Below the pieces are notes generated by a model. The model made no database searches and was not told the DNA's origin. It saw only the letters and a list, made by a program, of their open reading frames with translations. Below are positions 4,761 through 20,643 of a stretch of DNA of 24,265 bases, piece by piece (the first letter of the stretch is position 1; each line of letters opens with the position of its first letter). Origin of the DNA: a virus. Made by a program: the position numbers and the translations under genes. The stretch lies in IMG/VR virus record IMGVR_UViG_3300021170_000201, positions 1 through 24,265 of that record; one strand, given 5' to 3'.

Positions 4761-5022
4761 CGAAACGGGAAGCTCGGAGCGGCTAAGGAAAGCAGCCAAA
4801 GCGTTGGCCGATACGATGGAGACGTGCCATATTTGCGAGGGCACGGTCTTGGTGGAAGAAGGCCCAATTCACTGCGAGGATTGCTCGTATTATTGCGAAG
4901 AGCACGAGGGGCCGGAATGTCCGCGCTTGGACAATCTACATGCGGATCTGAAGAGGGCGCTCGCCGCAATGGAAGCGGAGCGCGTCAAGGAGCCGGAGGA
5001 GCAGGAACGGCCGGCGGGGTGA
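4726..5022 (+). CDS. Small Cys-rich zinc-binding-type protein; start uncertain
   Basis: The frame holds CHICEG, then CEDCSYYCEEHEGPEC, a two-knuckle zinc pattern, followed by a charged helix ending in EPEEQERPAG. The 5' end is doubtful. The strong Shine-Dalgarno (GGAGGAG near 4733-4739) fits an ATG at 4748 in a different frame that stops after 12 codons (MADLTKREARSG). A -1 shift near 4780 would join that start to this frame. Otherwise translation starts at TTG 4726 or ATG 4816, neither with good support. Overlaps the convergent gene at 4985 by 38 bp. Confidence 0.55.
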   Translation: MNRRRWEYGRFNETGSSERLRKAAKALADTMETCHICEGTVLVEEGPIHCEDCSYYCEEHEGPECPRLDNLHADLKRALAAMEAERVKEPEEQERPAG

Positions 5023-5203
5023 TCGGATGAGATGCCTGCCATGCGGCGATCTGCTTAAGCGTGTCCGCATTGGATGAATCCGCGGCATCCAGGTTAACGA
5101 TCAATGTTGTAGTCCCAGTAGCCCGGTCGTGGATGAGCGTGTAAATCTGCAAAGCACCTGGAATGGCGATCTGCAATAGGTTGAGGATGGCAGTCAGTGG
5201 CAT
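4985..5203 (-). CDS. Small hypothetical protein, last gene of fibre/lysis operon
   Basis: A 72-residue protein with a hydrophobic N-terminal segment (PLTAILNLLQIAIPGALQIY), possibly an amphipathic or membrane-associated helix, and a Pro-rich C-terminus. The ATG at 5203 is preferred: it follows GGAGG by 6 nt and shares a TGATG junction with the lipoprotein gene. A GTG one codon earlier is possible. Its 3' end overlaps the convergent early operon by 38 bp with no visible terminator. Its place after lysis genes hints at a lysis accessory, unproven. Confidence 0.6.
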   Translation of the reverse strand: MPLTAILNLLQIAIPGALQIYTLIHDRATGTTTLIVNLDAADSSNADTLKQIAAWQASHPITPPAVPAPPAP

Positions 5204-5676
5204 CACGCTCCTCCCAGAACTACTTGAACGGCGGCTAGTGCGCCCTGAAGTGTCACCAGCGCGAGTTGCACCTTCTGCTTCGTCGCGGCATCTTTGATCC
5301 CTAGCAATCCAGACTGAAGAGACGTATTGACCGTAGCCACAATTGGCTTAAGGACCGCCCATACGTTCGTCTGTTGCGCCGACGTAAGCTGGCTCAGGTT
5401 TCGGATGAGATTGGAAGCCTGTGCGTCGGCTTGTGTGATTGTCGAGCAGATGTTGAGGATTGCGCGGGTGTCGGCGTCGTTAACGAGCCCTTGACCGTTG
5501 GCAATGATGACAGTTGACGTGATCGTGTTCACGGAGCCTGCGATGTCGGCAACCGCTTTCGCCACCGTATCATAGGGAGTTGCGGTGGACGATACTGCGC
5601 CAGGAGTTCCAGGGGCTACCGTCTTAGGCGCACACCCCGCCAGCCCGAGTGCAAGGACGAACGCGGCGAGCCTCAT
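5203..5676 (-). CDS. Lipoprotein, 157 aa, possible outer spanin
   Basis: The N-terminus MRLAAFVLALGLAGCAPK is a clear lipoprotein signal with lipobox LAGC (Cys15 lipidated). The mature part is a Ser/Thr/Ala/Val-rich, probably helical, chain (AVADIAGSVNTITSTVIIAN, later helices with Gln and Ala). It lies four genes downstream of the murein enzyme at 6182-6562, where Gram-negative phages often keep outer-membrane spanin lipoproteins. At 157 aa it is longer than a typical o-spanin, so another surface or exclusion role is possible. Overlaps the upstream gene by ATGA. Confidence 0.7.
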   Translation of the reverse strand: MRLAAFVLALGLAGCAPKTVAPGTPGAVSSTATPYDTVAKAVADIAGSVNTITSTVIIANGQGLVNDADTRAILNICSTITQADAQASNLIRNLSQLTSAQQTNVWAVLKPIVATVNTSLQSGLLGIKDAATKQKVQLALVTLQGALAAVQVVLGGA

Positions 5677-5840
5677 ATGGCGTATTTATCTCCGTATGCC
5701 TTGAGGTAGTCGCTGGCCCGCATGTCGTCCGGGTGATTGAGATTCACGGTGGTCATCAGCCTGATCGTTGCCCAGTACACAAGGACGCTAGGAAGATGCC
5801 AAACCACCCACATCACGAATCGTTCCTTGAAGCGTCTCAC
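5673..5840 (-). CDS. Small single-span membrane protein, 55 aa
   Basis: Starts at GTG 5840, overlapping the previous stop as GTGA; a longer version from ATG 5921 would run 85 nt into the upstream gene and is unlikely. A positively charged N-terminus (RRFKERF) precedes a hydrophobic segment (VMWVVWHLPSVLVYWATIRL), so it is probably an inner-membrane protein. Given the neighbouring lipoprotein gene, an inner-membrane spanin or holin accessory is conceivable, but the part after the membrane segment is short. Confidence 0.6.
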   Translation of the reverse strand: MRRFKERFVMWVVWHLPSVLVYWATIRLMTTVNLNHPDDMRASDYLKAYGDKYAI

Positions 5841-6166
5841 AGCCCCAGCCTCGCTTTCTCGCTGGTGTACCACTGCTTCACGGCGTCGTTGGCGCTCACG
5901 TTCATCGGCGCGGTGAGCCACTTGTTGTACACGAACACCGCATAGACGTTCACGCCGTTGTCAATCGTTGCCTGGAAATCATCAGGCAGCGGCCACGTGT
6001 TCGGCGGATACGAACTCGCTATGATGTTGAAGTAATCGCGCATCTGCGTAGGCGTCGGCGGCGGCGAGTTGCCGATGTAGCTGCCAAGCATCGGGTCAGT
6101 GTGAATGCGCTCATCGCGGATCGCGCCGTAAACCTCTTGCTCGAACGGTGTGGGTGTGCCTGCCAT
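5837..6166 (-). CDS. Hypothetical protein, 109 aa
   Basis: Not recognised. A soluble protein beginning MAGTPTPFEQEVYGAIRDER, with an NSPPPTPTQ linker around residues 33-41 and a Trp/Tyr-containing C-terminal half. AAGGAG lies 5-6 nt before the ATG at 6166. Placed between the lysin candidate and small membrane genes and coupled downstream by GTGA. Confidence 0.65.
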   Translation of the reverse strand: MAGTPTPFEQEVYGAIRDERIHTDPMLGSYIGNSPPPTPTQMRDYFNIIASSYPPNTWPLPDDFQATIDNGVNVYAVFVYNKWLTAPMNVSANDAVKQWYTSEKARLGL

Positions 6167-6181
6167 CGGGGTCTCCTTGAT

Positions 6182-6562
6182 CTACGTTACTACTTCCGCG
6201 ACTGGCCGAGCAATCACCTTGATTTCCTCATCTGCGCTCGCCGTCAATTCGTGCCTGCATTCGTGGCCGATCACGATACACCCGAGGCTCGCATCGTGGT
6301 TGATATTGTCGCCGTGAATCAGAAAGCCCGAGCGGCCCAGGGTATCGGTAAACTCCTCGGGCGTGAGCCGGATCGTCAGTGGCCCCTTCTCGGTACTAAC
6401 TTCTCCCAGGACGTACATGCCTACCGGGATCGGACCCACATCGCGCACTTCCTGGAGCAGCGGATTGTCCCGACCATCACCGTGGCCGCTATAGCCTTGT
6501 CCGCACAGCGACCCATCGGGGCGGTAGAGATTGCCGGTGGATTGAACGTAGAGCCAGGGCAT
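6182..6562 (-). CDS. Tlde1/DUF2778-like L,D-transpeptidase-fold enzyme (lysin candidate)
   Basis: The pattern GYSGHG..NP, then GPIPVGMY (43-50), then GRSGFLIHGD (76-85) and ASLGCIVI (91-98) fits the DUF2778/Tlde1 family, a YkuD-related murein L,D-carboxypeptidase/transpeptidase. The likely catalytic residues are H83, S92 and C95. Known relatives are type VI secretion effectors that attack tetrapeptide stems of peptidoglycan. Here it sits in a phage operon with three small membrane proteins and a lipoprotein, so it probably provides the lytic activity. No signal peptide is seen, so it would need a holin. TGATG joins it to the upstream membrane gene. Confidence 0.75.
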   Translation of the reverse strand: MPWLYVQSTGNLYRPDGSLCGQGYSGHGDGRDNPLLQEVRDVGPIPVGMYVLGEVSTEKGPLTIRLTPEEFTDTLGRSGFLIHGDNINHDASLGCIVIGHECRHELTASADEEIKVIARPVAEVVT

Positions 6563-6759
6563 CAGGAGTGGCTATGGAGATGCCAGGGAGTGGGGATACT
6601 GCCGGTGAACATGGCGATGACAAGGATGAGTAGAATAACTCCGCAGACCCACAACGCGGGAGGGAAGTTAGCTAGGAATTTGGTGCAGATGACATACATC
6701 GCCCAGCCCAGAATGCCCAGAACCAGAATGTCAATCAGAAGCGGGATAAGCTGTTCCAT
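6562..6759 (-). CDS. Holin-like membrane protein, 65 aa
   Basis: Two hydrophobic segments: about residues 4-27 (LIPLLIDILVLGILGWAMYV) and 33-52 (PALWVCGVILLILVIAMFTG), with a short His-containing tail. Size, topology and its place directly before the murein enzyme (TGATG overlap) fit a class II-type holin. Similar two-span proteins of unproven role are common in phages. GGTGAGGT precedes the ATG at 6759. Confidence 0.65.
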   Translation of the reverse strand: MEQLIPLLIDILVLGILGWAMYVICTKFLANFPPALWVCGVILLILVIAMFTGSIPTPWHLHSHS

Positions 6760-6785
6760 ACCTCACCGCCTTTCGATCAATCCTA

Positions 6786-7169
6786 TCACGGCTGCTTGTC
6801 AGTCGGCGGAATAGGATTCGGGTTCGGAATGGATACCTCAACCTTCGAGGTTTTCTCGGTGACGTTGGTGATCTTTTCGGGCGTGATCTCGACATGCGAC
6901 GCTTCAGCGGCGGTCGCCTGCCCGGTGCCTGTTCCCATGCCGCGAGGCACCGAAGCAACTACGGTATCCTGGCCCTTCCAGGCATTCATGGCTGAGATGC
7001 GCTGGCCGACCGCGAACTTGATGACGCCCAGGAACCATTGGCCGTAAACATTCTCGGGCGTCGGGAAGGTGTTGACCATATGGCCGACGATAGCCAGCGC
7101 CGTCGAGCCGGAAACGAAAAGCTCTACGCTTTGGAAGGTGGGCAGATAGTCTGAGATCACCAGCATCAT
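6786..7169 (-). CDS. Hypothetical lysis-region protein, 127 aa
   Basis: Not recognised. A moderately hydrophobic N-terminal half (SVELFVSGSTALAIVGHMVN) that could form a membrane helix, then a Thr/Glu/Val-rich segment and a Pro-rich end (IPNPNPIPPTDKQP). AAGGAG lies close before the ATG at 7169. Located between two holin-like genes; may be a lysis regulator or membrane-anchored accessory. Confidence 0.65.
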   Translation of the reverse strand: MMLVISDYLPTFQSVELFVSGSTALAIVGHMVNTFPTPENVYGQWFLGVIKFAVGQRISAMNAWKGQDTVVASVPRGMGTGTGQATAAEASHVEITPEKITNVTEKTSKVEVSIPNPNPIPPTDKQP

Positions 7170-7178
7170 GGTTGCTCC

Positions 7179-7469
7179 TTATCGGCCTTCGTACTGCTGC
7201 TGCGGCTTTGGCCCGATTCCACCAATCGCTGCGTGATTCGTCCTAGAGAAGTAAAATCCTACCACAGTTCCAAATGCAACGCTCATGATCGTAGGTATCG
7301 GCTTGTCGCTGCCCTTGTAGGTTTCATAGATTCCGGCCCACATGGTCGAGATCACCACGATCAACGCGACCGTCGCCTGCGTGTACTCCCAAATCAGGTT
7401 GACCTTGCGCTGGCCGGCAGTCGTAATGTCCTGCTGCGCGGTAGTCGTGGCCGGAAGTGAGTCGTTCAT
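7179..7469 (-). CDS. Holin-like membrane protein, 96 aa
   Basis: A polar N-terminus, membrane segment 1 at about 32-48 (ATVALIVVISTMWAGIY) and segment 2 at about 61-75 ending in GTVVGFYFSR, a signature I associate with phage holin families that end in GFYFG. Its ATG abuts the stop of the large exported protein (TGAATG). Two candidate holins in one cassette could be holin and antiholin. Confidence 0.65.
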   Translation of the reverse strand: MNDSLPATTTAQQDITTAGQRKVNLIWEYTQATVALIVVISTMWAGIYETYKGSDKPIPTIMSVAFGTVVGFYFSRTNHAAIGGIGPKPQQQYEGR

Positions 7470-10400
7470 TCACTGAATCTTCGCACTTCCCGATATCGAA
7501 ACGCTACCTGAGATCGTTGTGCCCGCATTACTAGGAGGTGAGGTAACACGAATCGCCGGCCAGCTTGCCGCAAATCCCATGCCAAATAGTTGCCCTGGAT
7601 ACTTACCCATCGCCAACTGCGCGTCCGTCAAATTCGATGCTCCGATGTTGTTACCGATGGAGTTAGGATCATCGGCGAACCCAGGAGCGTTCCACCCTGC
7701 CTTGCTCCAGATCGCCCGATAGAGCGTATCGACTGTAGCTAAGTTGGCCGGTGTCGGATTGTCCTGATACCACTTAGTTATTGCGCTAAAGCCTTCCTGA
7801 TTTAGTTGCTCGCCCTCTACTTGGAAATTAACCGTTGGAGGGTTGCTACCAAAGCCGCATCCTGGAATACGCCAGATAAAGGTTTGCGAGATTCCAGCCT
7901 GCGACCCTCCGGACTCGCACGCTCCGTAAACCCGTCCGTAGAAGATGCTGTTGTTCTCGTAATTGAACCCGTATGTGTGCATCCACGCACCCGCCGCCGA
8001 TGACAGCGCAGTATAGGTCGTACCGAGAGGCGAATCGAGCACTGCGGCTAGCTTCATACCGTAAGTCTTGATGCCTAACATAAATGGCTGCTGCCCAAAT
8101 CCAGAGATCCCGTTGATGTAGTTAAACTGCCAGTTGGTCCCGCTAGTTCCCGTAAAACTCCGATCCAAAGTGATCGAGCTTGAGTTATTGAAGATGCAAC
8201 CGTAGTTATTTTGGAGAGCCGTATCGTTATTACTTTGGCCGTAGGTCGCCGAGTAAGGAGCCGAGTCGTTGGTGAGAATCGGCGTCTCCGTCATGTAGCT
8301 GACAGAACCGGAACTCCCCGGCCATAGCACGGAGATTTGGCCATGTGTCGAATCTGTACGAAGGAACTGGTAATGTCTTCCGCCAAGCCAGATTATCCCA
8401 GCTGTCGATGAGAACGTTCCGCTAGTTGCCGTGATCGCATTGCTGCCGGTCATGACTGTCGCAGTTCCGCTATCAAGACCAGAACACATCCCGCTCGTAA
8501 GACCAGAGCCGGTGAGTGCCGAAGATCCGTTCGTCATCGTCACTTGGGTTTGCGCCGACCACAGCAACCCATTCGCCCATGAGTTGGTGAATACGCCGCC
8601 ACCGCTCCCGGCACAAGCTACATCGCGGTTATAGAGCGTATTGGCTCCAGGACCAATTGCGTTCCTCCAGTACGTGCGCCAAGGAATGCCGCCTGGAGCG
8701 CCCATGCTGATCGTGTCTGGATCGTAGATAGCACCGAGGATCAACCATGTGCCTAGATAGCCCGAGTCGCGAGTGTCATAGGCGCTGCATCCAGCAGATC
8801 CGATAGATCCATTCGCGAACCAGGGTCGCAAGTCATTAATCGACGGAGTTCCGTAGAGGACGTAATGCGCGACTTCTCCGATCACGCCGCCGCCTAGAAA
8901 CAGCGGAGAGTAAGCTTGTCGATAGCCACCAGCGAACACTGGAAACTTCAGCCAGTTGTTGGCTACATGATCCGCCATGTTCTTGGCTTGGATCAGCCCT
9001 GAACGTTCATAGAGCGATATCCAGGCGAGACTCTCTCCGTAGAAATTTATCCCGCCAAGGCTACTCTGATTAAGATAGCCATTGAGCGGCCCTTGGTCGG
9101 CCCAAGCGTAGGTCCCGGTGAGCGTGCCTATTCCGTTTAGTGGTGCAATATCGTACCCGCTGAGGTTTAGGCCATTGTCGTAAAAGCACGTCGTATCGCT
9201 CTCGCATCCGGTGGTCGCCCATTGAAGATTTCCGGTTCCAGAATAGGGGGATTGCCGATTGAAACCAGTGACGATATAGCGATAGAACGGCTTGATTACT
9301 TTGTAAGTTAGCCCGGTATTGGTATCCCCTGTCGATGGGAAATTGCGATTCAGCGTGAGACTAGTGTCGCTATTAACGCTTGTCACCCAAGCTACGAACT
9401 TGAAGGGCGTAGAACCGTGGGTGCCTAACACGCAGACCGCATCTCCTGCGACTACATTCGCCATCCATGCTGTACCAGATCCCGTCATCGTGGCAGAGCT
9501 AGCCGTGAGTCCAGCGGTACCGGTTGAGTAGGATACCGGACCTCCAGGACAGGCTGCTGCTGCCAGTCCTATAGTGCTCAGGAAACTCGTGCCAGTGCCT
9601 TTGATAAGTTGCTGACCTACTACCGCACCCATTGACCAGGACTGTGCAGCCGCGTAATTTGTGAAGCCGAGGTTATTCCAGAAAGACCCGCTGCCAGCCG
9701 GGCTGCGCCCGTCATAGCAGACCGTCAGGGTGTTTCCCGAAGCGCCGCATATTCGGATTTCTTCATACGGGCCGAATACGTCTCCCGCAATAGACGCCTG
9801 AATCATGATACGTGTGGGAGTTCCTGGAAGGCTACTCAAGTCCAGCTTAGTTGCATCGGCCACAGTGATCGTCGTATCGGTCGAGTTTATACCCGCCGCA
9901 AGCGTCGTTCCAGTAGTTCCCTGGCTGCTGCCAATTCCCATGAACTGGTAAGCCACAGTGCCGGTTTGCGGATTTGCCCAGTCAGGATTTGCGTCCGTGT
10001 AGCTGCTATATGGAAACGGCGTATTATAGACCGTGGCTCGCTGATTCATCGCTGCTAAGTTGCGCTCATCGGCAAAGCCCCAAGGGTTCTGTCCCAGGGC
10101 TATCGTCGGTCCGAAGATCGACGTAAAGTTTGCACTTCTGGGGATCACCACGCCGTTGGCATCGAAGTTAACCGCGCCAATGTGCGCCGTTCCGCAGTGC
10201 ATATTCGCGCCGTCGCAAAGCTGAATTGTGTAGTCGCCGAACGCCGCTCCTGTGACGGTGGGCATCGCAACTGTGGTGCTGTTGAATGTGAGCGATGAGC
10301 ACGACACCGGCCCCGTTCCAGGATCGTAAGCGGTACACGACCAGTTGTAACCCGACCAGCCGCCTGTGGACGCTGAACCGTCGAGGCCGTTAGTTGCGCC

Positions 10401-10505
10401 CACTTTCCAAGACTGAATTGGTCCCCATGAAGGCGCGGGATTGGTTTTGATAACGGCGGTCTGCGCGAAAGCGGTAGCGGCGAGAAGGAAGAGGGCGAGT
10501 TTCAT
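7470..10505 (-). CDS. Very large exported phage surface/fibre-like protein, about 1011 aa
   Basis: The N-terminus MKLALFLLAATAFAQ is a Sec signal peptide with cleavage near residue 15; this ATG is preferred over an upstream ATG at 10604 that adds 33 polar residues. A PKD-like stretch (LDGSASTGGWSGYNWSC) comes first, then long Gly/Ser/Thr-rich beta sequence. Around residues 500-570 there is a helix-rich block (SGLIQAKNMADHVANNWLKF) that might be an alpha-toroid or glycan-active domain. Cysteine pairs such as CSAYD and CDGANMHC suggest disulfides. It lies in a phage operon between collagen-like and lysis genes. I cannot assign a family; a tail fibre, depolymerase or secreted adhesin are all possible. 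Confidence 0.75.
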   Translation of the reverse strand: MKLALFLLAATAFAQTAVIKTNPAPSWGPIQSWKVGATNGLDGSASTGGWSGYNWSCTAYDPGTGPVSCSSLTFNSTTVAMPTVTGAAFGDYTIQLCDGANMHCGTAHIGAVNFDANGVVIPRSANFTSIFGPTIALGQNPWGFADERNLAAMNQRATVYNTPFPYSSYTDANPDWANPQTGTVAYQFMGIGSSQGTTGTTLAAGINSTDTTITVADATKLDLSSLPGTPTRIMIQASIAGDVFGPYEEIRICGASGNTLTVCYDGRSPAGSGSFWNNLGFTNYAAAQSWSMGAVVGQQLIKGTGTSFLSTIGLAAAACPGGPVSYSTGTAGLTASSATMTGSGTAWMANVVAGDAVCVLGTHGSTPFKFVAWVTSVNSDTSLTLNRNFPSTGDTNTGLTYKVIKPFYRYIVTGFNRQSPYSGTGNLQWATTGCESDTTCFYDNGLNLSGYDIAPLNGIGTLTGTYAWADQGPLNGYLNQSSLGGINFYGESLAWISLYERSGLIQAKNMADHVANNWLKFPVFAGGYRQAYSPLFLGGGVIGEVAHYVLYGTPSINDLRPWFANGSIGSAGCSAYDTRDSGYLGTWLILGAIYDPDTISMGAPGGIPWRTYWRNAIGPGANTLYNRDVACAGSGGGVFTNSWANGLLWSAQTQVTMTNGSSALTGSGLTSGMCSGLDSGTATVMTGSNAITATSGTFSSTAGIIWLGGRHYQFLRTDSTHGQISVLWPGSSGSVSYMTETPILTNDSAPYSATYGQSNNDTALQNNYGCIFNNSSSITLDRSFTGTSGTNWQFNYINGISGFGQQPFMLGIKTYGMKLAAVLDSPLGTTYTALSSAAGAWMHTYGFNYENNSIFYGRVYGACESGGSQAGISQTFIWRIPGCGFGSNPPTVNFQVEGEQLNQEGFSAITKWYQDNPTPANLATVDTLYRAIWSKAGWNAPGFADDPNSIGNNIGASNLTDAQLAMGKYPGQLFGMGFAASWPAIRVTSPPSNAGTTISGSVSISGSAKIQ

Positions 10506-10594
10506 GATAAAATAAACATGGGCGCGATCCCGCAATCCTTGGGTGCCGGGCCGTGACTGCTGCGGTGACTTGCTAACGGCATCCGAGGATTGCT

Positions 10595-11255
<661 letters not shown>

Positions 11256-11259
<4 letters not shown>

Positions 11260-12830
11260 CGTTGTGTTATGTTTCCTATCAGGGAGATTAGCCCGCGAGA
11301 AACGGAACTTGGAAGAAGTCCATAAGATTGTATCTTGCTATCTTGCGTGGATACGTAGATACGTCCATTAGTCACCACAGGCGCAGCAAACTTCGTCATA
11401 TTCCCCAATGCGTCTTGTCCCGATGTGCCGCTATTCCAGTATTCCGCTAGTGTGGTCGGGTTAAGGGCACGCAGTGTCCCTTGTTGAACCGCCGTGTGGC
11501 TTGTGGTCGCCGTCGTCTCGACCCACAATATGCCGTTCGATGCCCCATTGATGCTGCCGAACATTTGGGCGGGTCCGTAGTTTCCGTAGCTATTCGTCTG
11601 CGTGGCAAGCGGTGTGGTTGTGAATGTACTGCCCCCGAATGTGAAGGCATATATTGATCCGGCGCTCGTGGGTAAGTAAAGTACGTTGTTCATGAACGCT
11701 CCACCATAAGAGCCGGTTTCAGAACCGGGAGTACCCATCGCGTTGGTCTTGAAAGTTTGAAGCGAGCAGCCACTTGACCCTTGTAGATGCCCCATGCAGG
11801 TCGTGTCGATAAGGTAGACATTAAAGTCTTTCCCTGCGACAATCGCGAAGTTAGTACTGGGGATCAGCATTGCCCGGTTCGCGGAAACGTCCGCATCGAC
11901 CGAATCAATCGCAGCATTGTTGGATGGCGTGAACCAATCAAGAACGGACAGCGTGGGGGAAAGCTTTACCGTGCTATCGGAGAAATTTGTCACGCCATCG
12001 TAGCCACCATCGTTGCCAGTGGTCACGTAAATATTGCCGCTTCCGTCTACAGCCGGAGCGCCACCCGACATCCAGACACCACCGCCATACCCATTGGGCG
12101 TAGAGCACCAAATTCCAGCTTGCGATAAATCGGACGTGTTGTAGGCAAATACCCATCCATGCCAGGGGCGCGTATCGTTCAGAGCGCCGAAGGCTACATA
12201 AACTTTATTGTTGGCGAGAGCGAGACCGGCCCGCTGAAATTCAAAGCGCGGATAAAATAGGAGATTCGCTCCGCTGGTCGTATCGCCTTGCCCCACGTCT
12301 CCCGTTCCAACGACTTGGCCGGAGATCGTCGCGGTCAGCAGAGTCGATCCGGTGGTGAGATCCAATTGCCGTATTACCCAGTTGGGCGTACTGGTGTCGC
12401 ACACCACGTAGAGCTTGGAGTTGGCGACATCAACGACCGGAGTTGAAAGACAACCGAGCGAACCGTACAACCCACCCTCAGCGACCGGATAACTCGCATA
12501 GGGACTAGCGAAGGCTAAATTGCTCCAGACGGTAGCTCCTGGCCTATTGGCGTCAAAGGCGTAGACACTGTTGTTCATCGTGACTACAATCAGTAAGTCG
12601 TGGACGACGCCAGAAGTCGTGACTGCCGGAACGAACAATGGCTGAGAGAACACATGGCCATCTGTGGCCCAACCTCCGAACAAGCCAAATTTGCCTGTCG
12701 TTACGTTGGTCGGTGTTAGCTGTGTCTCGGTCGAGACAGAATTGTTGCGATTACCGTCAACATTCGACGTAGGGATGCTAGCTGCTTTACTCAGCAGGAC
12801 AAGGCAGAGTACTAAAAACAATCGCTTCAT
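11256..12830 (-). CDS. Exported PQQ-type beta-propeller protein, 524 aa
   Basis: Signal peptide MKRLFLVLCLVLLSKAAS, then repeated beta-propeller blades: GHVFSQPLFVPAV, NNSVYAFDANRPG, NSKLYVVCDTST, NNKVYVAFGAL, GNIYVTTGND, GSIYAFTFGG and NGRIYVSTQDSK. Such blades (xVYAFDAxTG type) occur in PQQ dehydrogenase-like and outer-membrane assembly proteins, usually cellular rather than viral. No quinone or calcium ligands can be identified, so it is more likely a binding protein than an enzyme. It sits one base after the fibre stop, in the same transcription unit as phage genes, suggesting a captured host gene used at the cell surface or on the virion. Confidence 0.8.
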
Positions 12831-12831
12831 A

Positions 12832-15018
12832 TTACGGCCCCGTCCAGTGAATCAAAGCCACGTCCGTTTGATTATTAATAGGATTAGACCCCCAACCAAC
12901 CTGAGATACACTCGCCAGAAACGACGTGGCAGAACGGCTGTCAAACTGATTCCAATGGAAACTATCTGCCGAATAGTTGTAAACCATCGTCGTGCCGTTA
13001 TAGACCAATTGAAGGCACGAAGGGTTACCGACTATAACAGATGTCCTGGAAGGACCGGAATTATTCCATTCTAAGCGAACTGTGCTAAATGCCGATGACG
13101 TTGTCCATTCAGACTCGATAAGCGCCCAGGTCGTCGGTTCGGCCTGCAAGTTAAAGCTAACCCACTTTGTTCCATCCCCAAAATACAAACCGTAACCTGC
13201 AAATCCACCATCGCTACCGGCGGTGTCATGCAAAAAACAGGCTGTTAGGGTAAACGACCCACCTGGAGCTGCTTTGTATCGGATACGGGCAGAATTGGTC
13301 GTGCCTCCGTTAGCCGGACACGACTCATATTCATACCCGTTTGTAGAATCAATCGTGCAAGAGCCTTGGTTTGACCATGTCCACCCAGTTGACGTTGGTC
13401 GTGTCACATTTCCGAGCATTCCAGAGAAATACGACCACGTATTCGTGGACGAACAACGTGCTGTATAGACCGAATTGGTCATGTAGTAAAGATCGTTTGT
13501 GGTGCATGTAGCTGGCAGAGAAGCTGCTGTTCCTTGGGTGATATTAGATCCGCTAACCGTCACGGCCCCAGTCATCCCATTAACGCTCGTCACAGGAGCA
13601 GCAGTCGCCGCAAACGGCATAACACCCCCCGATCTCTGCGTGATCGAATTGCTTGTGCTACCGGTCGAGGTCGTAACTGTGAAATCCACAAACAACGCGG
13701 CAGTTAAGTCTATATTCCCGGATACCGCTGTGTTCGTGTCGTTGAATACGCTGTCGGGAGAAGTTGATAGAGAGCCAAGATCAACCGTCAAAGGGCCATG
13801 TATTTCCAGATTTCCAGTTGCTCCAACCGCCGCCGTGTACCCAAGGAAATTTACATTCCAAGTGTTATTGGTCGAGTTTGCCAGGGTCGCGGTAGAAGCG
13901 ATCGATGCGAGCGTAACTACTGTACCACTACCGCAGCCTGAGACGGTGCAGAGTTTGACCTTGAAGGTCAGTGTGGGGGTCTGCCCAATGGGAGTAGTGT
14001 AGACCCCTGCTCCGTTGAACAGAAATGGCTGACGTAAACTATTGAAGTAGCCAGCGGTCAGCGTAAGTTCGATCAACTGCTGTTCCGATGTTGAGTTTGC
14101 CGAGACGGTAATAGGGGTGACACTCGTAACTGAATTTCCAGACCCGCCACCACCAGAGCCGCACGGAGATCCAGCCGTCCCCAATTTGTACTTCGATCCT
14201 GACACCACCCAGTTGGCGCAATCCCCGTTAACCGGGGTGACCGTAAACTGTGGTATCTTTGCATCGGCGCTCCCTTGCGCGGCGTGTAGCATATCGGCTG
14301 TGGAGTCGTAGCCAATGGCCCCGTTAATTGCCGTTGTCAGACCGACCCCCACAGGTGCCTTGAAAGCGCTCGCCCCAGTAGACGCACTCATATCGAGTGT
14401 CATCGCTGACGATCCGGTATTAATACCTTGGTTGCGAACCAGATTGGCTGTGTCTGTAAGATTAGTAGAAGTGAATCCAGTAAAAACTCCCGTAGATACA
14501 CCTGAGGATGGAGTTCCCCAAAGCAGGAACTGATTGACAGAAGGAGCCGCACCGGGATACTTCAACCCGTAGCTTGTAACCGACGTTGGTCCGAGTAGGC
14601 TGATCGCGTTAGTCCCTAGTGTTGGGAGTGTCCCTTGACCGATATCTAAAGCTCCCGCAACGCCACCACCTGATCCGGCGATGAAGCTTAACGCCTTGAA
14701 GTTGCCAGAACTATCCGAAGTAACCACGCCCGTACTACACGGCCCAAACGCATTCGCAACATTGCACTGCACATCTCCAGGCGAGCCTCCAGGGAATACG
14801 GGGGTGCCGCCGCCCAACGTAGCCCACACTCCTGTAGACGGATTGCACCAAAATGGAGTTCCTGCCGAGGCGCTGCTGAAATCGAATTTGAGTGCAGGAC
14901 AGGCTCCGCTCGGATCGGCGGTTGACAGCTTGACCGGAGCGATGGTCACTTGGGCGAAAATTCCAGCTTGGAAGAATGCCGATACTGACAAAAGTAGCAG
15001 GAGCCGTTCTAGCTTCAT
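12832..15018 (-). CDS. Exported tail-fibre-like protein, 728 aa, first gene of leftward late operon
   Basis: Begins with signal peptide MKLERLLLLLSVSAFFQA ending at IFAQ. The body is Gly/Ser/Thr-rich beta sequence. Near residue 475-490 the motif VTSVNGMTGAVTV is a hallmark of phage tail fibres. After it, a domain from about 530 to the end (GSFTLTACFLHDTAGSDG...) looks like a jelly-roll/lectin domain for binding sugars. Several Cys pairs suggest oxidation outside the cytoplasm. The ATG at 15018 has no Shine-Dalgarno but a TATCAT 6 nt upstream. It diverges from the small terminase gene. Family: fibre, confident; why it is exported is unknown. Confidence 0.8.
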   Translation of the reverse strand: MKLERLLLLLSVSAFFQAGIFAQVTIAPVKLSTADPSGACPALKFDFSSASAGTPFWCNPSTGVWATLGGGTPVFPGGSPGDVQCNVANAFGPCSTGVVTSDSSGNFKALSFIAGSGGGVAGALDIGQGTLPTLGTNAISLLGPTSVTSYGLKYPGAAPSVNQFLLWGTPSSGVSTGVFTGFTSTNLTDTANLVRNQGINTGSSAMTLDMSASTGASAFKAPVGVGLTTAINGAIGYDSTADMLHAAQGSADAKIPQFTVTPVNGDCANWVVSGSKYKLGTAGSPCGSGGGGSGNSVTSVTPITVSANSTSEQQLIELTLTAGYFNSLRQPFLFNGAGVYTTPIGQTPTLTFKVKLCTVSGCGSGTVVTLASIASTATLANSTNNTWNVNFLGYTAAVGATGNLEIHGPLTVDLGSLSTSPDSVFNDTNTAVSGNIDLTAALFVDFTVTTSTGSTSNSITQRSGGVMPFAATAAPVTSVNGMTGAVTVSGSNITQGTAASLPATCTTNDLYYMTNSVYTARCSSTNTWSYFSGMLGNVTRPTSTGWTWSNQGSCTIDSTNGYEYESCPANGGTTNSARIRYKAAPGGSFTLTACFLHDTAGSDGGFAGYGLYFGDGTKWVSFNLQAEPTTWALIESEWTTSSAFSTVRLEWNNSGPSRTSVIVGNPSCLQLVYNGTTMVYNYSADSFHWNQFDSRSATSFLASVSQVGWGSNPINNQTDVALIHWTGP

Positions 15019-15039
15019 GAGGGTATGATACTGGATATT
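15019..15039. promoter_or_regulatory. Overlapping divergent -10 elements, leaderless both ways
   Basis: The 7-bp TATGATA (15024-15030) reads as TATGAT rightward and TATCAT leftward. Rightward it is 10 nt from the ATG at 15040; leftward 6 nt from the ATG at 15018. Neither gene has a Shine-Dalgarno sequence. One -10 region therefore probably serves both the late fibre/lysis operon and the packaging operon, so RNA polymerase binding in one direction would exclude the other. Confidence 0.5.
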
Positions 15040-15780
15040 ATGCCCCGGCCCAAGCCCAAACCCTTGATGCTAGAAAAAGGCGGCTCGACGCGCGGCCTTG
15101 TCCCCTCTTCGGCATTCGCCCGATTCGACATCACGTACAACGAGTACTTGGCCACTTTGGACCCGCGCGGCGACACCAAAGATTCTGCCGCGATCCGCCT
15201 CGCCTTGGCCGGGTCGTCCGATATTCGCTTCCGCAATTTCCTCGAAATGGCGTCGAATCCGCAGGTCAAAGGCTGGACCCTGGCCGCGATCGCCAAACAC
15301 TGCGAGATTGGCCTGACCGAATTTCAGGACTGGCGGCAGAAAGCTCAGACGCAACGGATTCTCGCCAAGGCCCAGGAGGGAATGCTCAAGGTCACGGACG
15401 ACTTGGTAGAGAATGCTCTCAATCGCGATGTGACCTGTGATCGCTGCGATGGCTTCGGCTCGGTAGTCTGTGACTCCAAAGCCCCGAAGTCTACCCCCGG
15501 CCTGCGTCGCATTAAGGGCATGAAATCTGCCGACGATACCTGGATGCGCGACTGCCCTACCTGCAAGGGTAAAGGTGTCCTGCGTGCCTCAGGCAGTGAA
15601 CATGCCATCGATAAGCTCATCGATATGACCGGACTGTCGAGCAAGGGCAAAGGCGGCAGCGGCCCATCTGTCACTCTAAATTTCGGTGGCGCGAGCATGG
15701 AATCCGCAGTAGACCGTCTCTCCAAGATCACCTTCGACGTGAACGATCCCATCGACGTAGATCCATCTCCCCAGAACTAG
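15040..15780 (+). CDS. Putative terminase small subunit with CxxCxGxG zinc motif, 246 aa
   Basis: Residues about 79-100 (WTLAAIAKHCEIGLTEFQDW) form a helix-turn-helix of the kind used by small terminases to bind packaging sites. Helices follow, then two zinc knuckles CDRCDGFG (133-140) and CPTCKGKG (172-179), the DnaJ-type CxxCxGxG pair, separated by about 35 residues. The end (NFGGASMESAVDRL) is conserved-looking. Its place upstream of TerL supports a DNA-recognition role. Start 15040 (MPRPKPK) is preferred to ATG 15025, which lies inside the -10. It is separated from TerL by a fibre gene. Confidence 0.65.
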   Translation: MPRPKPKPLMLEKGGSTRGLVPSSAFARFDITYNEYLATLDPRGDTKDSAAIRLALAGSSDIRFRNFLEMASNPQVKGWTLAAIAKHCEIGLTEFQDWRQKAQTQRILAKAQEGMLKVTDDLVENALNRDVTCDRCDGFGSVVCDSKAPKSTPGLRRIKGMKSADDTWMRDCPTCKGKGVLRASGSEHAIDKLIDMTGLSSKGKGGSGPSVTLNFGGASMESAVDRLSKITFDVNDPIDVDPSPQN

Positions 15781-15783
15781 TCC

Positions 15784-15789
15784 TATAAT
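15784..15789 (+). promoter_or_regulatory. -10 TATAAT for the rightward fibre gene
   Basis: A perfect TATAAT lies 7 nt before the ATG at 15797 and 3 nt after the upstream stop codon. There is no Shine-Dalgarno and no clear -35. Predicts a leaderless message. Confidence 0.5.
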
Positions 15790-15796
15790 CGTTGGC

Positions 15797-17527
15797 ATGA
15801 ACCGGACTCTTCTTGCTCTTGTCTTGCTGTGTCTCAGTTCCCTGCCCGCTTTCGCCATCCAATCGGCCACCGGATGGTGTGAAAAGGGCGGTCAGCGCGT
15901 CATTATCTCGAACAATGGGCAGACTTCCAGCGGCTATTTCCAGCGCTCGTTTCCCTCCTGCACGATCACGGTCTATCTGACCGGTACTTCCACTCCCGCG
16001 ACGATCTATTCGGACGGTAGCATGACACCGCTATCGAACCCCTTCTCGGCCACGGTTACCGGCCAGTGGATCTTCTATGCGCCAGACGGCAACTATGACG
16101 TGCAATACTCCGGCACCGGCGTCGGTAGTCCGTTCAAAATAGTCAATCTCCAGTTGCTCTCATCGAGCGGCGGCGGGGGCGGCGGCACAGGCACCGTGAC
16201 TAATACCGGCACGTTGACTTCAGGCCAGTTGATTCGCGGTAACGGCGGCGTGAATATCACAGTCGGCGACCTAGCGGGTGACATCTCGACCTCAGGGACT
16301 CTCACCACCACGCTCGCCACAGTCAACAGTAATGTCGGCTCTTGCGGCGATGCAACTCACGTCTCCCAGATCACCTTGAATGCCAAGGGACTCGCCACGG
16401 CTTGTACTGCCGTCGCGATCACATCGGGTGGCACTCCCGCTTTCTCGTCCATTACATCGGGCACGAATACGGCCGCCGCGATGCTCGTCGGATCAGGTGG
16501 ATCTTTTGGCTATACAGGCACCGGCACGGTCAGTGCCAACCAAATCCTCAATACGGCAATCACTGGGTTCACCGGCATCATCAAGATGACTTCAGGCATC
16601 CCATCGGTTGCCACATCAGGCATAGATTACGTCGGCCCCGCCACCGTGACGACCTACACAGCCGGGGCCAAACAGACTCTCTCGCAGTCGGCCACTACAG
16701 CCGGATTCAATTTGGGCGCTCTATCGATCGATCCATCGGTCCCGGTTCAAGGCGATCTCTGGTACAACGGCGGCGTATTGAAGTATCGCACCGCCTCGGC
16801 GACTCTGCTGGTCGGCGGCAGCGCCTCCTATACCACGGTCACTTTCTCGTCCACGCCGACGTTCACCGCTGTATCTACTACCGCCGACTCCTGGACGATG
16901 ACCCTGACCGGCAACGTGTCCTCGTCCACACTTACCGGCGCAACCACGGGCGAGATCCTGACATTCAATCTCTGTCAGGATGGAACCGGCTCCCGCACGT
17001 TTGTTCCGCCGGCCAACGTGCTCAACATGGGCACAATCGGCTCAACCGCATCTTCCTGCTCTCATCAGACTTTCGTGTTCGACGGCACGAACGCTCAAGC
17101 GCTCGGGGTCATGATCATTACCGGAGTCGCCGGGTCGTCGATCACGATGCCGGGGTCCACGTCTGGTTCTACGGTCGTGCAGCCCCAAGCCATCGCTGCC
17201 GGTACTGCCAAGCTGCCTGCCCAATCTGGCTCGATTCCGACTGCATATTTCTGCGGCGCGACGAGCGGCAATGCAGCCTGTGCGAACACCGATACGGCTG
17301 GTACCGGACGCATGATCGGCGGGATAGCCACTCTCGCGTCAAACAGCGCGGTCATTTCCGGTATATCGCCTGCCTTCACTAGCACTTCTACCTTCGCCTG
17401 CGCGGGTCAGGATACTACAACGATCACAAATCCGGTCAAGATCGTGAATACGTCGGCTACTTCGATCACGATAACCAACAATACAGGGGCCACAGATACG
17501 GTGAATTGGGTTTGTTATGGGAATTAG
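15797..17527 (+). CDS. Exported tail-fibre-like protein, 576 aa
   Basis: Signal peptide MNRTLLALVLLCLSSLPAFA, then a small domain (to about 115) and a Gly-rich hinge (SSGGGGGGTG). Residues about 140-210 carry the repeated fibre motif TGTLTSGQLIRGNGG and DATHVSQITLNAKGLATA, a well-known phage tail-fibre pattern. A long beta-rich C-terminal part follows, ending in a domain with Cys pairs (FCGATSGNAAC, FACAGQ). It is inserted between the small terminase candidate and the TerL genes, an odd place for a fibre. Start is fixed by the leaderless promoter and signal peptide. The other fibre (12832-15018) is similar in style but divergently transcribed. Confidence 0.8.
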   Translation: MNRTLLALVLLCLSSLPAFAIQSATGWCEKGGQRVIISNNGQTSSGYFQRSFPSCTITVYLTGTSTPATIYSDGSMTPLSNPFSATVTGQWIFYAPDGNYDVQYSGTGVGSPFKIVNLQLLSSSGGGGGGTGTVTNTGTLTSGQLIRGNGGVNITVGDLAGDISTSGTLTTTLATVNSNVGSCGDATHVSQITLNAKGLATACTAVAITSGGTPAFSSITSGTNTAAAMLVGSGGSFGYTGTGTVSANQILNTAITGFTGIIKMTSGIPSVATSGIDYVGPATVTTYTAGAKQTLSQSATTAGFNLGALSIDPSVPVQGDLWYNGGVLKYRTASATLLVGGSASYTTVTFSSTPTFTAVSTTADSWTMTLTGNVSSSTLTGATTGEILTFNLCQDGTGSRTFVPPANVLNMGTIGSTASSCSHQTFVFDGTNAQALGVMIITGVAGSSITMPGSTSGSTVVQPQAIAAGTAKLPAQSGSIPTAYFCGATSGNAACANTDTAGTGRMIGGIATLASNSAVISGISPAFTSTSTFACAGQDTTTITNPVKIVNTSATSITITNNTGATDTVNWVCYGN

Positions 17528-17550: not shown

Positions 17551-17790
17551 ATGCTCCGCGCCCTGCTTGCGATCTTCCGTCCGATGGCGACGATTGCCCG
17601 CGAGCTGACTACTCTCCGCGAACTATATGAGCTTGACCTTGGTTCTCGTCAGCCGCCGCTCTTTCGTGTGACCGAAAAACCAAATAAGCGCGACACGGAA
17701 GTTTCATATTCGGGCGTCGAAGATTTGCGACCCGGCTACAAACGCTGGTTCCAGCCCGAGGACGAGGAAGAGGAAGATGTACAGTCCTGA
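17551..17790 (+). CDS. Small protein upstream of large terminase, 79 aa
   Basis: Not recognised. An amphipathic hydrophobic N-terminal helix (MLRALLAIFRPMATIARELT) leads into a helix, then an acidic tail (PEDEEEEDVQS). It overlaps the TerL ATPase gene by 14 nt, so it is co-translated with the packaging motor and may be an accessory subunit. Starts at ATG 17551 with no ribosome-binding site, consistent with the leaderless pattern. Confidence 0.65.
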   Translation: MLRALLAIFRPMATIARELTTLRELYELDLGSRQPPLFRVTEKPNKRDTEVSYSGVEDLRPGYKRWFQPEDEEEEDVQS

Positions 17791-19024
17791 CATCATCGAC
17801 CGCCGCCTCCATCAGGCCAAGAAACAGGGCGAAGTGTTTCAGCGTCTGCCGCGCGATAAGTCAATCGATATCGCGGCAAAGCTGGAGCGGCTGCGGATCG
17901 GGCGTGATGGCAAACCGCTGCCCGAGGGCCAGCTCAGTCGCCCGCTTAATGCCGCCGAACAAGCGCACATTCATTCGGAGCGGTTGATATCGAAGTGCGA
18001 CTTCGAGTACTGGTTCGTCCGCTATGCCTGTCTGGAGCTTGATCCCGGTGTGTGTGACCGAAGCGGCGTCGGGCCGCCGATCTTGCTTGAGTCGCAGCGC
18101 AGATATATTACGTTGTTTGGCCGCCGAGAAAAGGAGTGCCATGAAGAGCAGAAAAAGTACAAGTTCACCGAGGGTATTCTTGCGTATGTACATAAGTGCA
18201 GGCAGGTCGTTGCGACCGCGACTGTCCGTGGTATCTCGCAGCACCGTCTACTCTTTTGGCCAGGAACCCGTGGCTTTGCTGCGAGCCTTGATGACGAGAG
18301 AAAAGGAGAGCTTTTCAAACGTGACCATCTCATCCTTGACAATCTCCCCTTTTGGCAAAAACCAAGAATCTATCCAGATGTGAAGGATACCGAATTAGGC
18401 TTTGAGCCACCGGTCTCCTCGCGTATCAACTACCAAGCTGAGAATCAGCAGTCTGGTATCGGCGTCGGTACGCAGAATGACGTGTCCCATCTGACTGAGG
18501 TAGCTCTCTGGCAATACCCAGGCCGCATCCGCTACAGCTTCATTCCCTCGCTGCCCAAGGCGATCACGACCTTTCACGTGCAGGAATCGACATCCGATGG
18601 CAAAGGGAACTACTGGCATGAAGTCACTGAGGCCGCACGTCATCGCCGACGAGGATACGAGTCCTGGATCTACGCTTTCATCCCGTACTATACGAACCGA
18701 CTCAAATACCGCTCGAATCCTCCGAATGACTGGACGCCAGCCGAGCACACGTTGCGCCACGCCGAACTGATCGAGCGCACGAGTCCTGAGTTCTTCGATG
18801 GCATGACGATACATCCGTCGAGGGAGCAGCTATTCTGGTGGGAATCCACTCGGGCACAGCATGCACTGAATGGTGAACTCGCGACCTTCTTAACAAATTA
18901 CCCTGCAACTCCAGAGCAGTCGTTCCAGTCGCCATCACAGGGTGCGCTGCCCGTCGAGTTGATCGAGCAGATGGAAATGGAATGCAAAGATCCGGTTCAC
19001 TATGAGGTCGAAGTCGCTGCCTGA
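17777..19024 (+). CDS. terL: Large terminase, ATPase half (split TerL)
   Basis: The packaging-motor ATPase. A Walker A-like motif lies at 140-150 (KCRQVVATATV; usual form K[AS]RQxGxST, so it is divergent). The sequence LLFWPGTRGFAASLDDERK follows. Walker B-like DVSHLTEVALW (235-245) has the catalytic Glu at 241, and HVQESTSDG (267-275) is the ATPase coupling motif. The protein ends at residue 415, before any nuclease domain, with a TGA that overlaps the next ATG (TGATG). A normal TerL carries both domains in one chain of about 500-700 residues; here the two are separate. Confidence 0.85.
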   Translation: MYSPDIIDRRLHQAKKQGEVFQRLPRDKSIDIAAKLERLRIGRDGKPLPEGQLSRPLNAAEQAHIHSERLISKCDFEYWFVRYACLELDPGVCDRSGVGPPILLESQRRYITLFGRREKECHEEQKKYKFTEGILAYVHKCRQVVATATVRGISQHRLLFWPGTRGFAASLDDERKGELFKRDHLILDNLPFWQKPRIYPDVKDTELGFEPPVSSRINYQAENQQSGIGVGTQNDVSHLTEVALWQYPGRIRYSFIPSLPKAITTFHVQESTSDGKGNYWHEVTEAARHRRRGYESWIYAFIPYYTNRLKYRSNPPNDWTPAEHTLRHAELIERTSPEFFDGMTIHPSREQLFWWESTRAQHALNGELATFLTNYPATPEQSFQSPSQGALPVELIEQMEMECKDPVHYEVEVAA

Positions 19025-19923
19025 TGCCCCAGCAAGCATTTCACGTCTCCGGCTCTCATCTCGACTTGACGCTCGAATCGGACGAGTCTATTGCTCAAGA
19101 TCCGCGCGGCCTCGTCCATGTGTGGCAGGAACCTGTGCAGCACGCCCGCTATATCATCGGCTGCGATCCAAGTGTCGGTATCACAGGCTGGCGGCGCGAC
19201 CTCGCAACAGATGGCGACCATAAGACTGACAACTCGGCCATCGAAGTGTTCCGCGTTGATGCCATCAAATCTCCCGTTATGAAGGATGGTCAGTCTGAGA
19301 TAGACCCGATCACCAAGGCCCCCAAATTCCTCTATCGCGACCTTCAAGTCGCCGAGTTCTTCGCCCCGGTAGATGCCGTAGAGATCGCCCGTGTGTGCAA
19401 TATCCTCGGCCGTATCTATGCCGGTGATCAGGACGATCAGGCCGAACTCATATACGAAGCCTATCCCGGCCCCGGTGTCTTGACCACTCAAGAACTCATG
19501 CGCCTCGGCTACACCAATTTGTGGTACTGGGAAACCATCGCGGATTCAGTCGCCGAGCAGACTTCGAGTGTGGGTTGGCACTCGAACATGAATACGCAGA
19601 AGATCCTGTGGTACAGGTCCCGGCGTCATCTATTGGAGCGTAAGGCCAAGATTCAGTCCCAGTGGCTACTCGCCGAATATGCCAATGCTGTCATCGACAT
19701 CGAAAAGATGCGCGCTCGCGCCGCTTACGGTTTCCACGACGATCTGATCCAGGCGGCAAATATGTGCTTTTGGGCTGGGCATAAGTGGACCTATGATCCC
19801 GAGCGCACCTGGGAACCCGTGACCGAAACTGCTATCGTCGAGCCTCAGCGCTCCGCTCCCGTACTCGGCGAATACCGCTCCTACAAAGAAGTCTGGGCCA
19901 ATGCTCTCGACGGCTGGGATTGA
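19024..19923 (+). CDS. terL: Large terminase, RNase H-like nuclease half (split TerL)
   Basis: The headful or site-cutting nuclease. Acidic residues fit an RNase H fold: D48 in YIIGCDPSVG, E145 in ELIYEAYPGP, and D239/D240 in GFHDDLIQAANM. The protein ends DGWD at residue 299. It starts at ATG 19024, sharing one base with the ATPase stop, so translation probably re-initiates there. About 20 N-terminal residues precede the first nuclease strand, suggesting a genuine start rather than a broken gene. Whether the two halves assemble in one complex must be tested. Confidence 0.85.
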   Translation: MPQQAFHVSGSHLDLTLESDESIAQDPRGLVHVWQEPVQHARYIIGCDPSVGITGWRRDLATDGDHKTDNSAIEVFRVDAIKSPVMKDGQSEIDPITKAPKFLYRDLQVAEFFAPVDAVEIARVCNILGRIYAGDQDDQAELIYEAYPGPGVLTTQELMRLGYTNLWYWETIADSVAEQTSSVGWHSNMNTQKILWYRSRRHLLERKAKIQSQWLLAEYANAVIDIEKMRARAAYGFHDDLIQAANMCFWAGHKWTYDPERTWEPVTETAIVEPQRSAPVLGEYRSYKEVWANALDGWD

Positions 19924-19962
19924 CACATACAATCGCCAGAGCGTATCCTGGGCTAACATCAG

Positions 19963-20238
19963 ATGGCGTCGAACATCAGACCAAATACACCATCGACGCA
20001 GAGCGGGGAGGCCGTTCCTCCGAGCGCTTCCCCACTCATCCGGCCGCCGCTGCCTCCAGCCTCTTATCCCGCGCAGCCGATTAAGTGTTCTGTCGAGATC
20101 GATGGCTACCAGGCATACGCGATGGTGCTGATCGAGCCACATATTCTGAAGCGGTTGCGGACCCGGTATCCGAATAACCTGGACGATATGCTGTGGGATA
20201 ACGTGTTCAAGCGAGCGCTGTACGATGCAGTCTACTGA
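19963..20238 (+). CDS. Hypothetical protein, 91 aa
   Basis: Not recognised. The first 40 residues are Pro/Ser-rich and unstructured, then a compact segment (IKCSVEIDGYQAYAMVLIEP) and a helix. The ATG at 19963 has a TAACAT 3 nt before it and no clear Shine-Dalgarno. It overlaps the zinc-ribbon gene by 14 nt, the same overlap as seen at 17777 and 4150. Position between TerL and portal suggests a head-assembly accessory. Confidence 0.6.
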   Translation: MASNIRPNTPSTQSGEAVPPSASPLIRPPLPPASYPAQPIKCSVEIDGYQAYAMVLIEPHILKRLRTRYPNNLDDMLWDNVFKRALYDAVY

Positions 20239-20626
20239 GGTTCTTTGTGTGGCGTGTGGTCAAACATACGGCATCGGGGAATATCCATATTGCCCACATG
20301 GACGACCACACGGCGGCACGCTACTTAGCTCTATCCACCCATCCGAGCGGGCAGTCGTCTATCGAAACCCTCGGACAGGCGAAGTCCGCTACCCCGCCCG
20401 AGCCGATCAAGCGGTCCCGGAAGTCTATGCAAAACAGGGCTACCAGCGGCAGGAACTTGCAACGCCTCAAGCTATCCGCCAGTTCGAGAAAGATACTGGA
20501 CGCATTCATGAACGATCTCATTACGACCCCGGCTCAGGCCGAGCTGATCGAGACAATGCTCGGGAGGCCGAACCCTACCACCGCGACCCGGAAGTGACTC
20601 ACCGTCTAGTAGAAGCGCTCCGATGA
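20225..20626 (+). CDS. Zinc-ribbon phage protein (FmdB-like), 133 aa
   Basis: A C-x2-C pair at residues 8-11 (LCVACGQTYG) with a later PYCPHGRPHG gives a short zinc ribbon. It is followed by SERAVVYRNPRTGEVRYPAR, a motif of a phage family with ribbons resembling FmdB. The rest is polar and helical (RQFEKDTGRIHERSHYDPGS). Found just before the portal gene, as in related phages. Role unknown; may bind DNA or head proteins. Confidence 0.65.
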   Translation: MQSTEVLCVACGQTYGIGEYPYCPHGRPHGGTLLSSIHPSERAVVYRNPRTGEVRYPARADQAVPEVYAKQGYQRQELATPQAIRQFEKDTGRIHERSHYDPGSGRADRDNAREAEPYHRDPEVTHRLVEALR

Positions 20627-20629
20627 GTC

Positions 20630-20635
20630 TATAAT
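20630..20635 (+). promoter_or_regulatory. -10 TATAAT of the portal gene
   Basis: A perfect TATAAT lies 8 nt before the ATG at 20644 and just after the previous stop. No Shine-Dalgarno and no good -35. Predicts a leaderless portal transcript in addition to readthrough. Confidence 0.5.
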
Positions 20636-20643
20636 CGGTCTCA

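Follow-up and report, generated by a model that had tools for sequence, protein, structure and literature searches.

Tailed phages are taken to assemble entirely in the cytoplasm. Virion proteins made with signal peptides are known from the filamentous phages, namely the coat proteins pIII and pVIII. Exported phage proteins described so far include endolysins, spanin lipoproteins and Lom (PMC6116005, PMC12633290, PMC12309495), and P1 Lyz is disulfide-regulated (PMC6116005). Among the closest described counterparts of the spike studied here are the head-binding tailspikes of cyanophages Pan3 (9vyg) and Pam1 (7eeq), Enterobacter phage Arya and Serratia phage MTx, which have a homologous N-terminal domain that anchors them to the virion. 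Searches of open-access papers found no account of tailed phages whose spikes are exported by Sec, and the preliminary description of the locus as an undescribed system is not contradicted by that literature.

The window, that is, the whole stretch of DNA analysed, is a virus record of 24,265 bases. Six of its genes had been proposed to encode fibre or surface proteins with Sec signal peptides, and all six N-termini were present as open frames. The features of the window are as follows:

15797..17527, plus strand: tailspike/fibre of 576 aa with predicted signal peptide (signal-peptide rule; tailspike domain homology; PDB profile; fold match)
12832..15018, minus strand: fibre of 728 aa with predicted signal peptide (signal-peptide rule; C-terminal phrog_19068 domain, 2e-12)
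11256..12830, minus strand: probable beta-propeller of 524 aa with borderline signal peptide (PQQ_2, 1.4e-4, below cut-off)
10993..11259, minus strand: small, predicted secreted protein of 88 aa with 2 mature cysteines (signal-peptide rule)
10593..10996, minus strand: collagen-like fibre of 133 aa with predicted signal peptide (Pfam Collagen, 4.3e-9; signal-peptide rule)
7470..10505, minus strand: large protein of 1011 aa with predicted signal peptide, possibly glycan-active (signal-peptide rule; phrog_1980, 1.2e-8)
4985..7469, minus strand: small genes contiguous with the signal-peptide module, apparent lysis cassette (abutting or overlapping frames; Rz-like spanin match weak, 0.028)
7179-7469, minus strand: transmembrane holin-like protein (PHROG holin, 0.039, weak)
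6562-6759, minus strand: transmembrane protein (in the apparent lysis cassette)
6182-6562, minus strand: Tlde1-domain protein without signal peptide (Pfam PF10908, 4.2e-12; phrog_24118)
5203-5676, minus strand: lipoprotein (lipoprotein leader at 5676)
17777..22611, plus strand: packaging genes without signal peptide (TerL ATPase part, putative TerL nuclease part, portal; Tunturi_1 homology)
20644-22611, plus strand: portal (phrog_156, 2.3e-15)

From 15018 to 7470 the five genes of the module share one strand, with most frames abutting or overlapping (the GTG start of the gene at 10996 overlaps the stop of the gene upstream), and the run passes into the genes at 4985..7469, among them a holin-like, a Tlde1-domain and a lipoprotein gene. 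These form an apparent lysis cassette, an assignment that is weak by score. An ORF at 15025-15780, inside the interval 7470-17527, is not fibre-like and has no signal peptide. The portal and TerL of the window showed 24-26% identity to those of the cultured podovirus Tunturi_1 of Tunturiibacter (Acidobacteriota), and 63-78% to those of closer IMG/VR relatives. From these matches, together with homologues of the 7470 protein in an Acidobacteriota genome, we infer that the phage probably infects Acidobacteriota.

Additionally, the large terminase of the window is seemingly encoded at 17777-19923 by two genes that overlap by one base, one for the ATPase part and one for a putative nuclease part, and in the relative L002 (7626-10270) the two halves are separated by an HNH-like gene, versus a single gene product of 724 aa in Tunturi_1. 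An HNH endonuclease gene (phrog_1271, 9e-15) is located at 546-998 of the window.

Signal peptides were assigned by a rule that required a positive n-region, an uncharged hydrophobic 8-mer and a -3/-1 cleavage site. Five of the six proposed signal peptides passed: those starting at 15018 (MKLERLLLLLSVSAFFQAGIFA, cleavage before Q), 11259, 10996 (GTG start), 10505 (MKLALFLLAATAFA, cleavage before Q) and 15797 (MNRTLLALVLLCLSSLPAFA, cleavage before I). The sixth, at 12830 (MKRLFLVLCLVLLSKAA), is borderline, failing the strict rule owing to Lys15; its homologues have hydrophobic leaders (L133, 68% identity, starting MKTILFFAFLVLSLNLGA; L005, 47% identity, starting MKTLILLAIYLV). The 10505 start is nested within a longer GTG frame (10604), and only the 10505 start gives a signal peptide. 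None of the 26 other window genes examined passed the rule; the leader at 5676, that of a lipoprotein, is a signal of another type. On annotated starts the rule gave false positives in 3 of 49 genes of T7, all short, and in 1 of 56 of Tunturi_3, i.e. 2-6%; at 5% per gene, five of six would pass by chance with a probability of about 2e-6.

The product of ORF 15797 comprises a signal peptide (1-20), a head-binding domain (about 22-121) with the cysteine pair C28/C55, and a fibre shaft. The domain, of about 100 aa, aligned by tblastn with the start of the tailspikes of Arya, ECOO78 and MTx; the annotated homologues examined, these and others, begin directly at the domain. A profile of the signal-peptide-bearing domain matched the PDB entry 'Tail spike protein' of Pan3 (9vyg, 3e-4) and, weakly, the 'Tailspike head-binding domain' of Pam1 (0.32). 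An AlphaFold2 model had a pLDDT of 87.6, its top matches among solved folds were 9vyg and 7eeq (probability 1.00, E about 0.01), and in BFVD it matched predicted phage spike structures, the best at 4e-7. Sequence and fold, together with the tail-operon position in relatives, agree in identifying the N-terminus of the mature 15797 protein as a tailspike head-binding domain. Among the six proteins of the window, this is the only one with a demonstrated anchor domain. The gene adjoins the packaging genes, and the window ends short of the tail-core genes. In two relatives (G005 and G007) the corresponding spike gene lies between T7 gp11-like and nozzle-like genes, labels that were read from position and sequence, and in G009 the same slot is occupied by an orthologue without signal peptide. 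The anchor domain and the operon slot in relatives strongly imply that the 15797 family belongs to the virion.

Conservation of the signal peptides in related phages had been suggested as a check, and they were found on fibre or spike genes of the TerL relatives and of the cultured phages Tunturi_1 and Tunturi_4, with none on the genes for capsid, portal or tail core. The relatives L002, L003 and L005 have such fibre-like genes in the same neighbourhood, with differing fibre bodies. In Tunturi_1 they are present in gp12, gp13, gp14 (annotated tail spike), gp16 and gp17 (annotated virion structural protein), and none was detected in its terminase, portal, capsid, gp11, gp30, gp31 or internal proteins. 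All the large spike or fibre candidates of this phage (gp12, 13, 14 and 17) carry one, and its annotated tail fibre without signal peptide measures only 125 aa. In the siphovirus Tunturi_4 they were found in gp113, gp114 and, from an upstream start, gp111 (L011, 30076-33171). The annotated start of gp111, at 30433, skips an in-frame upstream start that adds a clear signal peptide. The fibres of Tunturi_3, which shares its host strain with Tunturi_1, have no signal peptide; a host requirement was therefore rejected as the cause, and the trait belongs to phage lineages. The relatives G005 and G006 also keep fibre-like genes without signal peptide, so that host binding by their virions might not depend on exported spikes.

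In loci of about 10 kb, signal peptides were found on 37% of the genes of at least 300 aa near signal-peptide-bearing domains versus 7% near domains lacking one, with the domain gene itself included and gene calls made mechanically. The domains detected by Pfam in a set of 55 proteins with signal peptides include pectate lyase, beta-helix and LamG domains, and also F5/8 and Ig-like ones. Such domains are typical receptor-binding or depolymerase parts. A scan of Acidobacteriota genomes detected the head-binding domain in 2 of 396 and TerL in 1 of 396.

Some further observations were made on these loci. A Terriglobia MAG (L102, 7845-9491) encodes a 548-aa protein with signal peptide and head-binding domain next to non-phage genes and a transposase-like gene. 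Beside the terminase of L005 (5690-6325) lies a protein with signal peptide that, judged by eye, resembles a cohesin-type domain with a dockerin-like repeat (DLTGDGVCNIFDVVRVV) after it. Five contigs of about 60 kb (G001, G003, G005, G006 and G007) contain, also by eye, runs of small glycosyltransferase- and methyltransferase-like genes on the strand opposite to the structural genes.

The cysteine pair C28/C55 of ORF 15797 is conserved and coupled to the signal peptide. Among 75 non-redundant members of the domain, 48 had both signal peptide and pair, 21 had neither, six had a signal peptide without the full pair and none had the pair alone; four leaders missed by the rule were assigned by eye, and one retrieval pattern demanded the second cysteine, so that the set leans to cysteine-bearing rows, with signal peptides unaffected. 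Two members nested in signal-peptide clades, L037 and L069, have lost the signal peptide and both cysteines, in-frame stops upstream leaving no space for a leader. On the tree the signal peptide changed five times independently, only two of these on well-supported branches, and the coupling tested by independent changes alone was not significant, the changes being too few and the power low.

Even cysteine counts are expected of disulfide-bonded proteins and not of cytoplasmic ones. Whole mature proteins with signal peptides showed an even to odd ratio of 56:15 (71 clusters, p 1e-6), compared with 72:83 for conserved cysteine-containing genes without signal peptide (155 genes; Fisher p 6e-6 for the difference). 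In the window, cysteine pairs had been reported throughout the module; this holds for five of the six proteins, with 14, 10, 16, 4 and 2 mature cysteines, and not for the propeller, with five. The leader-linked pair and the bias to even counts are signs of oxidative folding and indicate that the signal is in use.

The other five proteins of the module are more heterogeneous. The 12832..15018 protein has an N-terminal DPSGAC...C module and a VTSVNGMTGAVTV motif, and a relative (L135) carries a signal peptide and the same cysteine module. PSGAC...C..G.W is a second module linked to leaders that is seen repeatedly near N-termini, and the 12832 protein has a form of it. The collagen triplets noticed previously were confirmed by Pfam (PF01391, 4.3e-9). 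The beta-propeller is a less secure assignment, the PQQ_2/BamB-like match (1.4e-4) being weak and below the curated cut-off. A protein like the 88-aa one in size and plan is encoded at 4597-4953 of L002, adjoining its signal-peptide-bearing spike.

The 7470 protein has a tail-fibre-like stretch at 325-405 and full-length homologues, at 43% and 37% identity, in the Acidobacteriota genome G198, beside glycosyltransferase-like genes. Its structure model was unusable (pLDDT 29.5), searches of phage records with it and with the propeller gave no match, and neither did a search of viral contigs with the 7470 protein. The homologues in G198 (L144 and L145, contig 24) are two tandem secreted proteins, and next to them is another secreted protein, which carries a PATC...C motif like that of fibres. 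The earlier suggestion of factors that modify polysaccharide is plausible for the 7470 protein, given its secreted homologues beside glycan genes. This protein, the propeller and the 88-aa protein may leave the cytoplasm and yet not become part of the virion, and these three and the collagen-like protein may act outside it.

Export of the spikes, as proposed previously, is well supported at the level of sequence by the conservation of signal peptides in related and cultured phages, the linked cysteine pair and the even-cysteine bias. We infer that the signal peptides are cleaved, that the proteins reach the periplasm and that they become part of the virion by docking at lysis. The host-binding tail appendages would be synthesised as Sec precursors, cross the inner membrane and shed their signal peptides, and the spikes would fold in the periplasm with disulfide bonds. 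Heads and tail cores would meanwhile be assembled in the cytoplasm. Docking is placed at lysis because spikes and tail cores would sit in different compartments; lysis would mix these, the N-terminal head-binding domain would dock on the tail, and the virion would be completed outside the cytoplasm. Among the functions proposed for the module, late addition of fibres at lysis fits best, because the 15797 protein has a tailspike head-binding domain at its mature N-terminus and because the tail-operon slot that holds the signal-peptide gene in some relatives holds an orthologue without one in another. No support was obtained for superinfection blockers, no homology being seen. On balance, we favour the view that these are virion spikes which leave the cytoplasm through Sec, fold oxidatively in the periplasm and dock at lysis. 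Whether this extends to a widespread class of tailed phages, with cytoplasmic capsid and tail core and Sec-exported, disulfide-bonded periplasmic spikes joined only at lysis, we consider evenly balanced.

A different role for exported proteins would be outside the virion, in the periplasm, at the surface or in the medium, e.g. degrading polysaccharide and thereby freeing progeny or stripping receptors. The full-length homologues of the 7470 protein, chromosomal and secreted beside glycosyltransferase-like genes, agree with it, and so do the pectate lyase, beta-helix, LamG and F5/8 domains of the 55 proteins and the signal-peptide-bearing anchor-domain protein lying amid non-phage genes in a Terriglobia MAG. 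It is nevertheless unlikely, since a head-binding domain would be useless on a protein outside the virion, the exported spike of relatives takes the place of a virion spike within the tail operon, and in Tunturi_1 gp12, 13, 14 and 17 all have signal peptides, the annotated tail fibre without one being only 125 aa long.

Two other explanations do without export of a folding spike. A hydrophobic N-terminus kept on a virion protein assembled in the cytoplasm, as a membrane-active or oligomerising helix, would agree with the helix at 2-13 in the model of ORF 15797; the classical -3/-1 cleavage sites, the linked cysteine pair and the even-cysteine bias make it improbable, as does the complete lack of a hydrophobic N-terminus in homologous spikes. 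Still more improbable is the capture of genes from host secreted proteins, with signal peptides as leftovers on spikes that fold in the cytoplasm. Domains in common with a host chromosomal cluster, and similar leaders in front of very diverse fibre bodies, would be explained by it, but the leaders are kept across highly diverged phages, their loss goes with an absent cysteine pair, and the anchor domain is of phage type.

If spikes are indeed exported, tailed phages would have a second assembly route and disulfide-stabilised receptor-binding proteins, and spikes could build up at the envelope of the cell ahead of lysis, which may affect receptors and superinfection. Predicted secretion signals stand on the host-binding spikes of a sizeable group of tailed phages, cultured phages of soil Acidobacteriota among them, and gene callers may clip such leaders, as in Tunturi_4 gp111. 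The proposal is directly testable in the cultured Tunturi_1, Tunturi_2 and Tunturi_4, with Tunturi_3 as same-host control lacking signal peptides; the paper describing these phages does not mention signal peptides and contains no virion proteomics or localisation.

With regard to known systems, filamentous phages also make virion proteins with signal peptides, but they are ssDNA phages that leave the cell by extrusion through the membrane, with no lysis, and their proteins are unrelated. Sec-exported endolysins (Lys44 of fOg44, SAR endolysins; PMC6116005) are likewise phage proteins exported through the host Sec system before lysis, and differ in being lysis enzymes rather than virion components. 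The chimeric MAT fibres of Bdellovibrio (PMC10769870), compared by description only, have a signal peptide, a beta-rich domain of about 130 aa and then phage-fibre-like adhesive tips, and are encoded and displayed by the predatory bacterium. WceF of Pantoea stewartii reportedly has a tailspike-like fold that the bacterium uses on biofilm glycan (PMC7949094), and is a host enzyme. The head-binding tailspikes share with the spike described here the anchor domain, the variable depolymerase or lectin bodies and, as seen in relatives, the tail-operon position; the annotated homologues examined start at the domain, without signal peptide or cysteine pair.
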